From: a virus
Strand: one strand, 5' to 3'
IMG/VR virus record: IMGVR_UViG_3300037502_001706
Span: 1-34,843 of that record
DNA: 34,843 bases
Shown: piece after piece, positions 19,530 through 26,341 of the stretch
Position numbering within the stretch: position 1 is the first letter of the stretch
Layout: each line of letters starts with the position of its first letter
Notes under the pieces: model-generated
Told to the model about the DNA's origin: nothing
Databases searched by the model: none
What the model saw: only the letters and a program-made list of their open reading frames with translations
Program-made: the position numbers and the translations under genes

Positions 19530-19544
19530 CCCGGTGGAACCGGG
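19530..19544 (+). repeat. Hairpin between small early gene and recT
   Basis: CCCGGT-gga-ACCGGG is a perfect 6-bp stem with a 3-base loop, twelve bases after a stop codon. It lacks a T tract, so it may tune read-through or mRNA stability rather than end transcription. Confidence 0.4.
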
Positions 19545-19620
19545 TAAGCCACGGAAGGGAACCAACCGGCAAGGCAGGACGCGGAGCCGGTTTCACATCA
19601 CGCAACGAAAGGGACGCGAC

Positions 19621-20469
19621 ATGAGCACGGAAATCAGCACAAACACGGCACCAGCGAGAGGGTTGGCTCTCGCCTCGCAGGAGGAGCCATCTTTCGGTTC
19701 TCTCGTCAGCATGGGCGATGCCCTGCGTCGTACCGGCTTTTTGCCGAGCCACATCAAGGACGGCGTTTCGTTCGCTGCGATTGTCTTGATGGGCCGCGAG
19801 CTCGGCATGGGGACGATGGCTGCCTGCCGAAAGCTCCAAGTCATCAAAGGCACCGTTACGGAGCGGGCCGACTCGCAGTTGGCGCGGTTTAAGTCGTGCG
19901 GCGGACGGGCTCAGTTCAAGGAACTGACGGAGGCTAAGGCAGTCGTCTGGCTGCGGCACCCCAACGGCGACGAGCACGTCGAGACGTTCACGATGGAGGA
20001 CGCCAAGCGGGCTGGCCTGGCGTCGAATGACAACTACGCCAAGCACCCGAAGGCCATGCTTCGCAGCCGGGCGATAACGGCGGGGCTCAAGAGCCTCGGC
20101 TGGGAAGGTTCGGTTGGCATCTACGATCCAGACGAGATTTCGGACCAAACGCCCGAGCCGGCCCCAGCGGTCAAGGTGACGCAGCCCGAGCCCGTCGTTG
20201 TGCGTCCGAAGTTCAACGACACGCTCGCGACGGAGACGCCGCTGGGCAAGGCGAGGATCGCCGTCAGTCGTGCCACCACCGTCGAGCGGTTGGAGAAGCT
20301 CCGCACCACGGCAGACGAACGCCTCGCGGGCGGCACGTTCACGAAGGACGAGCACAAGAGCCTGTGCGATCTGATCCACGGGAAACTCGACATCCTGCTC
20401 AACGCCGAGGACAGCGGCACCGAGCACTTCGACTCGCAAGAGGTTGCGGCGGAGGCGCACGCCCGATGA
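19621..20469 (+). CDS. recT: RecT-family single-strand annealing protein
   Basis: 282 residues, ATG 19621 behind AAAGGGA. Family features: an early SMGDALRRTGFLPSHI, then SFAAIVLMGRELGMGTMAAC with LQVIKGTVTERADSQLARF, and the hallmark KHPKAMLRSRAITAGLKSLG followed by VGIYDPDEISD. It would anneal single strands during phage replication and recombination. No RecE or lambda-type exonuclease is seen nearby. A later RusA resolvase fits the same pathway. A longer form from GTG 19534 is possible but lacks the ribosome site and would break the N-terminal pattern. Confidence 0.88.
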   Translation: MSTEISTNTAPARGLALASQEEPSFGSLVSMGDALRRTGFLPSHIKDGVSFAAIVLMGRELGMGTMAACRKLQVIKGTVTERADSQLARFKSCGGRAQFKELTEAKAVVWLRHPNGDEHVETFTMEDAKRAGLASNDNYAKHPKAMLRSRAITAGLKSLGWEGSVGIYDPDEISDQTPEPAPAVKVTQPEPVVVRPKFNDTLATETPLGKARIAVSRATTVERLEKLRTTADERLAGGTFTKDEHKSLCDLIHGKLDILLNAEDSGTEHFDSQEVAAEAHAR

Positions 20470-20986: not shown

Positions 20987-21343
20987 ATGAGCGATTACTG
21001 GCCAGAAACGACCGACACGCTGCCGCTGTTCACGCAGCGAGCCCCCGCAGCACGCGGATCGATCACCTCGGCGCAGGCGGCCGACTCGCTCGGGCCGGCA
21101 ACGCTCAACGCCATGCAGCGGCGCGTTCTCGAACTGCTCCAGGCGACGCCCGAGGGGCTGACCGACGAGGAGATGCAGAAGCGGCTGGGGATGAACCCGA
21201 GCACGCAGAGGCCACGGCGGATCGAGCTCGCACGGCGCGGGCTGATCGTCACGAGCGGCACCAGAAAGACCGCGAGCGGGCGGAGTGCGGATGTGTGGAT
21301 GGTGGCGGATAAGGCGTTGGAAACGATTCAAGGAGGTGTGTGA
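20987..21343 (+). CDS. Winged-helix DNA-binding protein
   Basis: 118 residues, ATG 20987 behind GGAAAGGA. The segment TLNAMQRRVLELLQATPEGL and then TDEEMQKRLGMNPSTQRPRR with IELARRGLIVTSGTRKTASG is a classic winged helix: helix-turn-helix plus wing. Small proteins like this occur in replication modules of phages, as regulators or as accessory factors. It overlaps the next gene's ATG (TGATG). Confidence 0.75.
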   Translation: MSDYWPETTDTLPLFTQRAPAARGSITSAQAADSLGPATLNAMQRRVLELLQATPEGLTDEEMQKRLGMNPSTQRPRRIELARRGLIVTSGTRKTASGRSADVWMVADKALETIQGGV

Positions 21344-22275
21344 TGCGTTGGAAGAAGATGCCGGAAGGCAAAGAAAAATACTCGGCGTATCTGTGCAGCC
21401 GGGAGTGGTCAGTTCTCAAGGAGGCCGTGAAGGCCCGCAGCGGCGGCGTTTGCGAGCGCTGCGAAACAAACCCAATGGATCACGTTCACCACCTGACGTA
21501 CGAGCGGAAGTACGCAGAAAGACTTGAAGATCTGCAGGCGTGCTGCAGGCAGTGCCACGACTTTATCCACGCGAAGTCCGACAACGACCCAGCGGAAAAT
21601 CGCCCAATCGTACTTCCTTGGCGTGGCGAGAGCGTCAAGTCCTTTTATCTCGCCGGAAAGATTACGGGAACAACTTGGCGCGATGCGATCGTCCCGGATT
21701 GGTCTGAGGAGAATCATTCTTTTGCGTATTGCAGCGCATTCATTGACTACGAAGAATGCAAAACGTGGGCAACGGTGCCGAACGCATGCAGCGCTTGTGG
21801 CGTTAACCTTCATTACACGGGGCCGTGGTGGAGGGACACGAGAGGTGGCGCTGGTGGCCACGGCACGTCCAGCCAGTCGAGGCACCCGCACGGCTACTTT
21901 CTTGACATTGAGTCGCTAAACGATTTCGACCGCTTCTCCTTGTTACCTGACGGCTTTGATGTAAACGCGGCACGCGCCGAAGTATCACAGGCCGTGCGGT
22001 TTGCGGTGGAGGCCGCTGACCTGGTGTTTGCTTGGATCGATGGGCCGGACTGCTACGGGACGATCCTTGAGATTGGCTACGCCAGAGCCCTCGGCAAGGC
22101 CGTCGTCATTGCAATGAGCAATGAATTCGCCGCCACGAAGGCCGCTCACGAAATGTGGCTGGCGACCAAGTGGGGGTACTACATCGAAGCAAAGAGCCCA
22201 GCCGAAGCATGGTCCCACTTCTGGGACTTGGTGGCCGCTGAACAGGAGGCAACCAGTGCCGCACACGCAGGTTGA
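21343..22275 (+). CDS. HNH nuclease fused to nucleoside deoxyribosyltransferase-like domain
   Basis: 310 residues, ATG 21343 behind AAGGAGGTG. Residues 1-80 are an HNH-type domain: CERC at 37-40, DHVHH at 46-50 and CCRQCHDFIH at 67-76. Residues 99 to the end resemble nucleoside 2-deoxyribosyltransferases: FYLAGKIT at 102-109, then a CSAC at 149-152 in an inserted loop, and the catalytic-type glutamate in TILEIGYARALGK (about E243). The family cleaves N-glycosidic bonds in nucleosides, while relatives degrade nucleotides. A fused nuclease suggests work on phage or host DNA. The combination is rare to my knowledge. Confidence 0.75.
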   Translation: MRWKKMPEGKEKYSAYLCSREWSVLKEAVKARSGGVCERCETNPMDHVHHLTYERKYAERLEDLQACCRQCHDFIHAKSDNDPAENRPIVLPWRGESVKSFYLAGKITGTTWRDAIVPDWSEENHSFAYCSAFIDYEECKTWATVPNACSACGVNLHYTGPWWRDTRGGAGGHGTSSQSRHPHGYFLDIESLNDFDRFSLLPDGFDVNAARAEVSQAVRFAVEAADLVFAWIDGPDCYGTILEIGYARALGKAVVIAMSNEFAATKAAHEMWLATKWGYYIEAKSPAEAWSHFWDLVAAEQEATSAAHAG

Positions 22276-23143
22276 CCATTACATCCCGTTCTTCGGGCGA
22301 GACTTCTACGCCTCGACGGCCATGTGGACGGCTGCCGAAGTGGGCCACTACATCCGATTGTTGGTGATCCAGTGGGACAGCGGATTCTTACCGGCCGAGC
22401 TCGAGCGGCTGGAGCTCGTGTCGCCCGGCATCTCCTCCGTGTGGGAACTCCTACAGACGAAGTTCCCGACGTGCGATGACGGCCACCGGCGCAACGCGCG
22501 AATGGAGGAGCACCGCGCAAAGGCCCAAGAGTTGAAGGCCAAGCGGGCAGAGTCTGGCCGCAGCGGTGGAAGCAAAAGCCAAGCAAACCGCAAGCAAACA
22601 CCCAAGCAAACGGCAAGCAAAAGCCAAGCAAACGGTGAAGCAAACGGCCAAGCAAAAACGAAGCCTCCATCTCCATCTCCATCTTCTTCCCTTCGGGAAG
22701 AAGAACACACACACCGCACGCGAGACGCAAGCGAAGACTTCGGGCATCCCGGCTGGGCAGCCGATGAGTGGGACCGCTTTCTGGCTGTCTGGAACGCCAC
22801 TGAGCGGGCAGCCAAGTGGACGCCGCTCATGGCACCGGCTGGCTGGGTAGACCTCGCGGCGTCGCCAGGCTGGCTTGAGCGTGCTCGGCAGGCGATGGCC
22901 CGCCTGCCCGCCTGCAAGTTCTTCGAGAACCCGCTGGCCGTCACCAAGTTCTTCGAGTTCGTGGATCGGATCTTGGCTGGTGAGTTCGACAACGCCAAGA
23001 GGCAGCACGGACGAGAGGCTCCAGGCGAAAAGCCGCCCCCGAAGGTCTGGAAAGACCAGTACCGCCCAGCCCAATACAAGCGACCGCGTGAAGTCGCCGC
23101 TCTTGCCGAAGGATTGAAACTCAAGGACGAGGAACCACTATGA
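22256..23143 (+). CDS. DUF1376-type replication initiator-like protein
   Basis: 295 residues starting at GTG 22256 behind AGGAGG. Residues 5-70 (HYIPFFGRDFYASTAMWTAA, then GHYIRLLVIQWDSGFLPAEL) match the DUF1376 family of phage replication proteins. A Lys/Gln/Ser-rich linker at about 105-140 follows. The C-terminal domain (WAADEWDRFLAVWNATERAA, then WLERARQAMARLPACKFFEN) resembles initiator C-domains. It presumably opens the phage origin and recruits the host replisome. The linker DNA contains an iteron array, as in lambda O. An overlap of 20 bases with the HNH fusion gene implies coupling. Confidence 0.75.
   Translation: MPHTQVDHYIPFFGRDFYASTAMWTAAEVGHYIRLLVIQWDSGFLPAELERLELVSPGISSVWELLQTKFPTCDDGHRRNARMEEHRAKAQELKAKRAESGRSGGSKSQANRKQTPKQTASKSQANGEANGQAKTKPPSPSPSSSLREEEHTHRTRDASEDFGHPGWAADEWDRFLAVWNATERAAKWTPLMAPAGWVDLAASPGWLERARQAMARLPACKFFENPLAVTKFFEFVDRILAGEFDNAKRQHGREAPGEKPPPKVWKDQYRPAQYKRPREVAALAEGLKLKDEEPL
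22570..22657 (+). repeat. Iteron array inside initiator gene (origin candidate)
   Basis: Eight copies of AAGCAAA (A or C) start at 22570, 22581, 22592, 22604, 22615, 22626, 22638 and 22650. The spacings are 11, 11, 12, 11, 11, 12 and 12 bases, close to one helical turn. Because 11 is not a multiple of three, the copies fall in different codon frames, so selection acts on DNA rather than protein. This is the structure of a theta-type phage or plasmid origin. A degenerate ninth copy starts at 22661. Confidence 0.75.
22682..22704 (+). repeat. 10-bp perfect hairpin next to iterons
   Basis: TCTTCTTCCC (22682-22691) pairs with GGGAAGAAGA (22695-22704) around a 3-base loop (ttc). It follows three CTCCAT repeats at 22665-22682 and lies 25 bases after the last iteron. 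It is inside a coding region but unusually strong, so it may be part of the origin, for priming or unwinding. Confidence 0.55.
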
Positions 23144-23382
23144 CCACCGCAACCCAGCCCCAGCCCATTAGCGAATCCACCCGCCGCGTCTACGACGCGA
23201 TCGTGGCGTACATCGATAACAAGGGCTTTTCGCCCAGCGTCCGCGAGCTCTGCACGCTCACGGGCATCAGCAGCCCCAACGGCGTGAATGGCCACCTGCT
23301 GATTCTCGAAGGCCGTGGGTGGATCACCCGCATGCCGAAGGCCGCCCGCACGATCCGCATCAAGGAGGTGGCGAATGCCTGA
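23140..23382 (+). CDS. Stand-alone LexA-type DNA-binding domain
   Basis: 80 residues, ATG 23140 overlapping the initiator stop. The order TRRVYDAIVAYIDNKGFSPS, then VRELCTLTGISSPNGVNGHL and LILEGRGWITRMPKAARTIR is the LexA N-terminal winged helix. There is no C-terminal peptidase, so it cannot cleave itself. It is the only LexA-like candidate for binding the GTTC-N8-GAAC operators in this window. It may be a repressor, an antagonist of host LexA or a replication regulator. Binding to those sites is untested. Confidence 0.78.
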   Translation: MTTATQPQPISESTRRVYDAIVAYIDNKGFSPSVRELCTLTGISSPNGVNGHLLILEGRGWITRMPKAARTIRIKEVANA

Positions 23383-23620: not shown

Positions 23621-23895
23621 CGCTCTCGCAACTCACGCTCGTTTCGGCGGGCATTGTCGTCCAAGCCCTGACGTTCGCTCTGGGCATTGTGGTTGGTGTT
23701 TCTCTCACTCGAAAGGATTCAAAAGATGACCGCGACTATCGCACGGAAGCGCAAGAGTTCTGGCATAGCCATGCCAACCGACTTGCTGAAAAGAGCCCTG
23801 GCTGCGGTGCGGGCTGCCGTCCCAAACAGAAGCCCGAAGCCGATCCTGTCGAACGTTTTGCTTCACAACGGCGGGATCACCGCGACCGACCTTGA
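23617..23895 (+). CDS. Small membrane protein overlapping clamp gene
   Basis: 92 residues, ATG 23617 (ATGA with the previous stop). Residues 4-30 make one strong membrane helix (LTLVSAGIVVQALTFALGIV, then VGVSL). The C-terminal 60 residues are charged and cross the first 170 bases of the clamp gene in another frame. The hydrophobic start is convincing; the long overlap is unusual. The true gene might end by an indel or simply overlap. Small membrane proteins in replication modules may anchor replication or act in exclusion. Confidence 0.45.
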   Translation: MTLSQLTLVSAGIVVQALTFALGIVVGVSLTRKDSKDDRDYRTEAQEFWHSHANRLAEKSPGCGAGCRPKQKPEADPVERFASQRRDHRDRP

Positions 23896-24829
23896 GCTTC
23901 AGGTTTCGGCCGAGGTGCCGTACACCGACGCGCCCCTGCTGCTCCCGTTCGCTCGCCTCCAGGCGATCCTCGGGGCAGCGTCGGGCGACGAGGTGACGCT
24001 GACGCCGGGCGATGCGTCCTGCACCGTGAGCGTGGGCGGTGGCACCTGGACGTTGCCCACCGAGGACGCGGCGGAGTTCCCGTCGTGGCAGCCGGCGGGC
24101 GTGAAGCCCATCTGCCGGATCCCGGCGGACCAGTTCTGCCGGGCGGTGAAGGCTGTGGTCTACGCCTCGGATGACGAGAGCAGCCGGTTCGCCCTCGGGG
24201 CGGTGCTCGTCGAGGTGCAGGATGGCACGGTGACGCTCGTGGCCACGGACGGGCGGCGGCTGTCGAGTTACGAGATCGAGGTGGACCAGGCGGTGGACGA
24301 CTCCACCACGCTGATCCCGGCACGGGCGGTGCATACGTTTGCCAGCATCGCCGGCCACTCGGACGGGGCGGTGCAACTGGAGGCGACCGACCGCGAGGCG
24401 ATTGCCACCATCGACGGCACGGTGGTCACGGCCCGGCTCGTGGAGGGACGCTTTCCCCGGTGGCGTGACGTGATCCCCGAGCGGGAAGTGAAGGCGTCGC
24501 TCGTGAACGGTGCCGAACTCCTGGCGGCGACGAGGCAGGCGGCCATTGTGACGAGTGAGCAGTCGAAGGGCGTGACGTTCGCGTTCGTGGAGAACGGCAT
24601 CCACCTGACGGCCCAGAGTGCCGAGGCGGGGCAGTCGAGCGTTACGTGCGGGCTGCTCGAAGCGGGGCAGGCGGCGAGCGTGGCGCTCGATCCGACGTTC
24701 GTGGTGGACTTCCTGCGTGGCGTGGACGAAGCCGAGCCCGTCGAGGTTGAGGCGGTGGACACGCAGAGCGCCGTGGTGTTCCGGTGCGGCGACTGCACCG
24801 GCGTGGTGATGCCTTTGGCGAAGGACTGA
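23726..24829 (+). CDS. dnaN: DNA polymerase sliding clamp (DnaN-type)
   Basis: 367 residues from ATG 23726 behind AAAGGA. The start includes PTDLLKRALAAVRAAVPNRS, then PKPILSNVLLHNGGITATDL, which is the beta-clamp N-terminus, followed by the three-domain course (LLLPFARLQAILG, then SRFALGAVLVEVQDGTVTLV with ATDGRRLSSYEIEVD in domain 2). The C-terminal VVMPLAKD resembles the VMPMRL end of bacterial DnaN. E. coli DnaN has 366 residues. No DNA polymerase is visible in the window, so the clamp would work with the host enzyme or with a recombination partner. An earlier ORF start at 23687 lacks a ribosome site. Confidence 0.9.
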   Translation: MTATIARKRKSSGIAMPTDLLKRALAAVRAAVPNRSPKPILSNVLLHNGGITATDLELQVSAEVPYTDAPLLLPFARLQAILGAASGDEVTLTPGDASCTVSVGGGTWTLPTEDAAEFPSWQPAGVKPICRIPADQFCRAVKAVVYASDDESSRFALGAVLVEVQDGTVTLVATDGRRLSSYEIEVDQAVDDSTTLIPARAVHTFASIAGHSDGAVQLEATDREAIATIDGTVVTARLVEGRFPRWRDVIPEREVKASLVNGAELLAATRQAAIVTSEQSKGVTFAFVENGIHLTAQSAEAGQSSVTCGLLEAGQAASVALDPTFVVDFLRGVDEAEPVEVEAVDTQSAVVFRCGDCTGVVMPLAKD

Positions 24830-25409: not shown

Positions 25410-25817
25410 GTGAAGCCCCTGACGTTCGAGGTGCCGGGCAATCCCGTCCCGCAGCCGAGGCCACGAGTCTCCACGCGGGGCGGTTTTGCACGGGCGTATG
25501 TGCCGGGAAAGCACCCGGTGCATGCGTACCGCCAAGCGATCGCAGCGGCGGCCCTGGAGGCCGGGGCCACGCCGACCACCACGGAGCCGCTCACGGTGAT
25601 CCTCGATCTCGTCTTCGCCCGCCCGGCGTCGCACCTGACGAAGAAGGGGCTCAGGAACGGTGCCCCGGTGTTGCCACGGTTCGACGTGGACAACTGCGCC
25701 AAGGCGTGCCTCGACGCCTTGAACGGCGTGGCGTTCGCGGATGACTCGCAGGTGGCGAAGCTCGTGGTGGAGAAGTCCTACGGCACGGAGGCACGGACGA
25801 CCGTGCGGATTCAATGA
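25410..25817 (+). CDS. rusA: RusA-type Holliday junction resolvase
   Basis: 135 residues from GTG 25410. The family hallmarks are clear: the opening LTFEVPGNPVPQPRPRVS, and the catalytic region FDVDNCAKACLDALNGVAFA followed by DDSQVAKL, with the aspartates that hold magnesium. RusA cleaves four-way junctions formed in recombination and replication. It would act together with RecT. The stop overlaps the next ATG (ATGA). Confidence 0.92.
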   Translation: MKPLTFEVPGNPVPQPRPRVSTRGGFARAYVPGKHPVHAYRQAIAAAALEAGATPTTTEPLTVILDLVFARPASHLTKKGLRNGAPVLPRFDVDNCAKACLDALNGVAFADDSQVAKLVVEKSYGTEARTTVRIQ

Positions 25818-26341
25818 GTAACCAGAGCCTTTACGACTTCCTCGCCGAGCACTGCCGCGAGCACACGGTGCGGTCGTACCTTGAGATTGGCACCCGTGAC
25901 GGCGGCTCGCTGCGTGTCGTCGTGGAAAACTCCCCGGCTCTGGAGTCGGTGGTGTGCGCCGACACCTGGGGCGGCGAATGGGGCGGCACCGACCGGGGCT
26001 CGCACGACCACATCGACCGGCTCCTGGCGGGGATGCTCTACACGGGCGACGTGCGTTACCTCGACGGAGACTCCAAGGAGACGATCCCGACGCTGACCGG
26101 GCAGTTCGACTTGATCCTCGTGGACGGCGACCACTCCTACGAGGGCGGCATGGCCGATCTGCGGAACGTGTGGCCGCTCTGCCCACCAGGCGGCTGCATC
26201 GCGTTTCACGACATTACACACCCCGCCCACCCGTATCTGCTCACGGCGTTCGACGAGTGGGTGGAGGAGCGGCGGGCCGAGCTCGCCGTCTGGCGTCAGG
26301 TGCTCGAGCCCTACGGCGTGGCCGTGGCGGTGAAGAAATGA
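25814..26341 (+). CDS. Class I SAM methyltransferase (Methyltransf_24-like)
   Basis: 175 residues, ATG 25814. A Rossmann-type SAM-binding start is visible (SYLEIGTRDGGSLRVVVENS, then VVCADTWGGEWGG), followed by FDLILVDGDHSYEGGMADL, the signature of Methyltransf_24 / cephalosporin hydroxylase-like methyltransferases. A late GGCIAFHDITHP adds a metal-ligand His/Asp pair. These enzymes often modify glycans or small molecules rather than DNA. It is directly coupled to a glycosyltransferase gene, so a sugar substrate is plausible. Confidence 0.8.
   Translation: MSNQSLYDFLAEHCREHTVRSYLEIGTRDGGSLRVVVENSPALESVVCADTWGGEWGGTDRGSHDHIDRLLAGMLYTGDVRYLDGDSKETIPTLTGQFDLILVDGDHSYEGGMADLRNVWPLCPPGGCIAFHDITHPAHPYLLTAFDEWVEERRAELAVWRQVLEPYGVAVAVKK

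Follow-up and report, generated by a model that had tools for sequence, protein, structure and literature searches.

Gene content of the locus

The window analysed here is the whole of a 34,843-nucleotide stretch of viral DNA (IMG/VR record IMGVR_UViG_3300037502_001706), which encodes a terminase, an exonuclease, RecT, a LexA-type protein and a DnaN clamp. The gene under study encodes an initiator of the O-like or primosomal kind (Table 1), the exact start of which is a predicted one as the reading frame is open from 22121. The DnaN sliding clamp is encoded directly in the initiator operon with the LexA-type gene in between, and none of the window ORFs tested could be recognised as a helicase or helicase loader. 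The gene immediately before the initiator (21340-22275) is nucleoside 2-deoxyribosyltransferase-like, possibly for nucleotide modification or salvage, and a TylF/Methyltransf_24-type methyltransferase (25814-26341) is encoded within the early region.

Table 1. Features of the initiator gene and its surroundings in the window
Feature	Position	Strand	Basis or remark
RecT-like annealing protein (replication/recombination context)	19534..20469	+	Profile match
Initiator (O-like / primosomal) gene	22256..23143	+	GTG start, 295 aa (295 codons)
DUF1376-like N-domain, winged-helix-like, presumed DNA-binding domain	22277..22510	+	Pfam match, AlphaFold2 model
Segment encoding RAESGRSGG, directly before the array, candidate specificity element	22544..22570	+	Covaries with iteron sequence
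Eight AAGCAAA iterons, 11-12 bp apart	22570..22656	+	Direct count, Tandem Repeats Finder, shuffles, codon null
(CTCCAT)3.3, 6-bp tandem tract, candidate unwinding or loading element	22665..22684	+	Tandem Repeats Finder
Hairpin TCTTCTTCCC-TTC-GGGAAGAAGA, 10-bp arms, 3-nt loop, lineage-specific	22682..22704	+	10/10 pairs
C-terminal domain, residues 167-240, presumed helicase-machinery recruiter	22754..22975	+	Structured in AlphaFold2 model; kept in relatives
LexA-type DNA-binding domain gene, next in operon	23140..23382	+	Pfam match
Phage-encoded DnaN sliding clamp (replication context)	23726..24829	+	Profile match

The initiator protein

The protein runs from a DUF1376-like N-domain through a long helix ending in RAESGRSGG and a disordered linker to a C-domain; in the AlphaFold2 model pLDDT is ~90 at residues 20-80 and falls below 50 across linker residues 118-160. 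DUF1376 (PF07120) is its sole Pfam match, at E 2.8e-5 and 24.9 bits, under the Pfam gathering cut-off of 30.1, and the Phage_rep_O N-domain (PF04492) is absent. As relatives bridge to full matches in an iterated HMM, the protein is likely a divergent member of DUF1376. PHROGs 9327 and 3992 (phage primosomal / replication initiation) match the N-domain and linker with E values of 2.4e-12 and 7.8e-11, a search of annotated phages with the window protein gave no match, and a fold search with the model returned weak winged-helix matches and nothing better (Z 5.9 or less).

The C-domain is retained in relatives that have other N-domains and, by analogy with lambda O, is presumed to recruit the helicase machinery. 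Relatives L165-L171 have AAGCAAA arrays and a C-domain as in the window protein, with a different N-terminal domain (RGLLVDLLCILFEANEQGYAS...). A C-terminal tail, EKPPPKVWKDQYRPAPYRRPREVAALAEGLKLKDEE, is conserved in L172-L180 (compared with window residues 249-293 and 231-295) whilst the N-terminal parts and linkers differ, and this tail is a candidate binding peptide for the helicase or clamp.

In annotated phages the gene next after one of DUF1376 or Lin1244 type encodes a DnaC-like loader or a replicative helicase. The window gene is thus assigned as an initiator by the PHROG 'primosomal protein' profile, by a domain swap with lambda-O homologues that is described below, and by these DnaC/DnaB neighbours in annotated phages.

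The iteron array and the elements that follow it

The array is made of regularly spaced direct repeats within the linker coding sequence, between the N- and C-domains. The copies of AAGCAAA start at 22570, 22581, 22592, 22604, 22615, 22626, 22638 and 22650, with spacings of 11, 11, 12, 11, 11, 12 and 12 and codon phases of 2, 1, 0, 0, 2, 1, 1 and 1, so all three phases are used and the last three copies, 12 bp apart, share one frame. Tandem Repeats Finder reports a period of 11 and 7.6 copies. Across both strands of the whole window there are 12 copies of AAGCAAA against 2.8 ± 1.6 in dinucleotide shuffles (0/100 reach 12), and pairs at exact 11-bp spacing number 4 against 0.00. When compared with annotated phages, the array DNA gave two chance-level matches and no others. 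A sequence-only reading of the window had described eight such repeats in shifting frames within the gene, followed by CTCCAT repeats and a perfect 10-bp hairpin; the array is exact by its coordinates and by Tandem Repeats Finder, and both of the following elements were found.

A 6-bp period occupies the position corresponding to (CTCCAT)3.3 in 132 non-redundant arrays, where the DNA 3' of the last iteron has an identity of 0.515 at lag 6, 0.495 at lag 12 and 0.449 at lag 18, against ~0.31 at the remaining lags, 3 and 9 among them. The tract in the window is not AT-rich and many low-GC relatives have an AT-rich counterpart. In several DUF1376 genes chosen by Pfam, the 6-bp tract gives way to a repeat of 7 bp, AACCAAT for example (106 matches at lag 7 versus 20 expected, with 11 versus 17 in control ORFs), and as this version runs out of frame it argues that the tract acts as DNA; from its position we infer helix opening or helicase loading there. 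In L407, L414, L378, L380 and L404 the iterons are followed by such out-of-frame 7-bp tandem repeats, with units like AACCAAT or AACCCAT. The hairpin was rejected as a general origin element, with arms of at least 8 bp in just 11 of 146 arrays. Given this rarity and its retention in close relatives only, it is a lineage-specific addition; in one relative, L432, its bases have changed and the pairing is longer.

Selection on the array

The change of frame between copies had been offered as strong evidence that the DNA, not the peptide, is selected. Frame rotation alone is no proof of this, because a perfect 11-bp repeat also yields an 11-residue peptide repeat, and codon and comparative tests are needed. 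With the peptide fixed, redrawing synonymous codons by phage usage gave eight copies in 0/20,000 trials (maximum 5), and shuffling synonymous codons within the gene itself never gave more than 6 copies, again with 0/20,000 trials reaching 8. Codons that are rare in this 63% GC phage are used in the array (CAA 24%, GCA 12%, AAA 21%).

The comparative test drew on DUF1376 genes picked by Pfam HMM alone from ~840 whole genomes, of which 48 were tested for exact 6-mer matches at out-of-frame lags against a synonymous-permutation null, with 88 neighbouring ORFs, about equal in total length, as controls. The DUF1376 genes had 129 matches at lag 11 and 142 at lag 22, each versus 24 expected (z 14 and 15), and with the five strongest genes dropped z was still 7.0 and 6.5; the neighbouring ORFs had no excess at lag 11 (18 vs 16) or lag 22 (15 vs 14). 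Taken individually, 22 of the 48 genes have at least 3 lag-11/22 matches in the linker, therefore a clear exact array is not in every DUF1376 gene. The iteron sequence varies among these genes, for example L383 has AACGG eight times at exact 11-bp steps.

It might be argued that the peptide is what is selected, as a low-complexity basic linker with an 11-residue repeat (KQTxSKxQANx), with the repeat in the DNA arising as a side effect when the repeats expanded. The disorder of residues 118-160 in the model and the 11-residue peptide repeat displayed by many relatives would suit such an explanation, yet it is contradicted by the synonymous-codon null, by the excess of matches at lags 11 and 22, both out of frame, in the Pfam-selected sample and by the use of rare CAA, GCA and AAA codons. 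Furthermore the ATCGCAAA array of relative L152 keeps the spacing while the peptide it encodes (KPIAKVSQTDRKPIAKGIAN) is quite unlike that of the window. We regard selection on the peptide as most improbable.

The codon null, the out-of-frame periodicity across the family and the replacement of the array in L152 show that selection acts on the DNA of the array rather than on the peptide, and the sequence-only reading was right in this. It had also expected that among relatives the linker protein would drift while the repeats persisted; the peptide does drift and the 11-bp spacing does persist, but the heptamer itself is replaced by a new one. No relative compared had kept the peptide and lost the repeat spacing, the case that had been named as counting against an origin.

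Distribution of arrays among viruses

Viral contigs were searched with the pattern AAGCAAA-N4-AAGCAAA-N4-AAGCAAA, and matches were filtered for coding-strand ORFs of at least 150 aa. Three copies at 11-bp steps occur in at least 120 viral stretches on more than 100 viral contigs, and among the matches listed ~104 fall in such ORFs, where they occupy all three codon phases and lie nearly always in the mid-protein linker of an initiator- or helicase-loader-type protein. Pfam searches of 84 array-bearing proteins among the matches listed gave 55 with DUF6291, 9 with DUF1376, 4 with DnaB_2 and one each with Lin1244_N, Phg_2220_C and Phage_rep_org_N. The PHROG types among the same listed matches are primosomal, replisome-organizer, DnaD-like and O-like, and at 45% identity these listed proteins form ~20 clusters. 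A permuted heptamer, AACGAAA, gave 27 matches, many of which are also arrays in initiator-like linkers; it is not a clean negative control, many of its matches being another iteron family. A scan of bacterial genomes for three copies of AAGCAAA as a measure of breadth was dropped, with many matches outside initiators. A common design, in which the repeat sequences are exchangeable, is found across many unrelated phages, in initiators filed as of 'unknown function'.

Iteron switching and the motif before the array

Relative L152 is 78% identical to the window protein overall and ~92% identical in the DUF1376 domain (read from the alignment), and has seven copies of ATCGCAAA at 11-12 bp where the window has AAGCAAA, the whole array having been replaced in concert. 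Arrays of three TCGCAAA copies were found in 48 viral stretches. The motif GNxxRW lies directly before the array in 37 of 41 long TCGCAAA ORFs and, among the matches listed, before the array in 0/104 AAGCAAA ORFs, 14 of whose 20 clusters have GG (motif GxxGG) in that place.

In a tree built from DUF1376 N-domains, with the motif left out of the alignment, the iteron type switches 8 times (bootstrap range 7-8). Strongly supported branches require 3 of these switches, and the motif, GxxGG or GNxxRW, follows iteron type in step. Three rows of the tree were scored as motif-less through too short a search window, and their sequences read GNLARW or GNDARW. With so few supported pairs the sign test for covariation does not reach significance (median p 0.25), for which reason the covariation is strong pattern evidence, short of formal proof. 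Specificity may reside in this motif, which comes just after the DUF1376 domain.

The motif could also match the iteron type through physical linkage, as part of one recombining cassette in which it does not read DNA. That it is encoded within ~30 bp upstream of the array, and that the strongly supported branches carry just 3 switches, would fit with linkage; the finding of GxxGG before AAGCAAA in 14/20 clusters of otherwise dissimilar proteins (among the matches listed), and the 0/104 (likewise among those listed) versus 37/41 division of GNxxRW, speak against it. Linkage of this kind is quite possible, although we lean slightly away from it.

A broader proposal is of a modular origin cassette common to tailed phages, set within otherwise unrelated initiators and made of a DNA-reading basic motif, 11-bp iterons and a 6- or 7-bp opening tract, in which motif and iterons switch together. 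The pairs would be GxxGG with AAGCAAA and GNxxRW with TCGCAAA, and tentatively SAxARW with GCAATGCG and AGKASxxAR with GTTSAAC or CAACGG. Since motif and iterons would switch together, the specificity of an initiator would be predictable from its sequence. We consider this proposal evenly balanced between being right and wrong.

The array as a probable replication origin

We think it very probable that the array is the replication origin of the phage, placed inside its own initiator gene in the manner of lambda O, with the initiator binding the iterons, the tract opening and the C-domain delivering the helicase. The initiator, through its winged-helix N-domain and the basic motif that follows, would bind the eight AAGCAAA iterons, and its protomers would stack along the same side of the helix because the iterons lie one helical turn apart. 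The resulting complex would strain the adjacent 6-bp repeat tract until it opens, and the C-domain would then deliver the replicative helicase at the opened tract; initiator binding, tract opening and helicase loading are steps that we infer.

That the array is the phage origin had been proposed earlier, and this reading is supported by selection at the DNA level, the profile-based identity of the initiator, the domain swap, the helicase-gene neighbours in annotated phages and the DnaN and RecT genes of the window. Cumulative GC skew, suggested as a check, rises almost monotonically with no global extremum at the array; it gave no support for an origin and was rejected as an origin marker. Also counting against an origin are the absence of a recognised helicase or loader among the window ORFs tested, the DUF1376 score below the cut-off and the weakness of the fold matches.

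Repeated sites could also be bound by the initiator or by the neighbouring LexA-type regulator (23140) in another role, the array then being an intragenic operator for autoregulation or a repressor site, and not an origin. This is very unlikely, given that repeats at the matching position in lambda O, P22 and phage L form an origin, known or proposed, that a linked repeat tract comes next, and that in the tree of the initiator itself the array switches together with the motifs.

Intragenic iterons are already known, in lambda O and as 11-bp repeats in gene 18 of phage L, but the wide occurrence of the present arrays, their concerted switching and the motif that covaries with them seem undescribed before, and in the open-licence literature we found no description that links DUF1376 with iterons or replication. 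With an origin reading DUF1376, and probably DUF6291 and others, all filed as unknown, would gain a function, that of initiators which carry their own origin. It would also provide a rule by which origins could be located from sequence in thousands of uncultured phages, as well as a naturally occurring set of initiator-iteron pairs that differ at one peptide motif, whose recognition code would be open to bench test.

Comparison with known systems

The sequence-only reading had drawn on lambda for iterons within an initiator gene, and this precedent holds, the iterons of the lambda origin inside gene O being classical (PMC6022878) and phage L gene 18 having six imprecise 11-bp repeats that are its proposed origin (PMC8022706). 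As in the window, the lambda iterons lie in the linker between a DNA-binding N-domain and a helicase-recruiting C-domain, with the coding strand intact and a distinct tract just downstream. Lambda, however, has four 18-bp inverted-repeat iterons that lie ~two turns apart and are bound by dimers, whereas the window has eight 7-bp cores one turn apart, and the Phage_rep_O N-domain and 39-bp AT-rich stretch of lambda stand in place of the DUF1376 N-domain and 6-bp repeat tract.

Gene 18 of Salmonella phage L resembles the window gene in having 11-bp direct repeats within an initiator gene in changing codon phases, its TGTCCAACGGA repeats are annotated as a putative ori (rep_origin), and an origin is predicted there too; it differs in having no DUF1376 match, a different N-domain and another iteron sequence.

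YdaU, encoded by the E. coli Rac prophage, which has a known origin, oriJ (PMC3945230), shares with the window protein a DUF1376 N-domain and a basic motif (AGKASVQAR), and has TGTTCA repeats at 33 bp (3 x 11); ydaU adjoins the ATPase gene ydaV. Its repeats are few and degenerate, its motif is of another class and its C-domain, unlike that of the window protein, is of the Gifsy/lambda-O-homologue type, 47% identical to that of the Gifsy-1/2 lambda-gpO homologue. Gifsy-2 O, which has this C-domain in common with YdaU, also has iterons in the corresponding linker, but these are 22-bp-spaced ATCCCCGAAA iterons and the N-domain is Phage_rep_O. The comparison of YdaU with Gifsy-2 O thus indicates that exchange of the DNA-binding domain goes with exchange of the iterons at one place.
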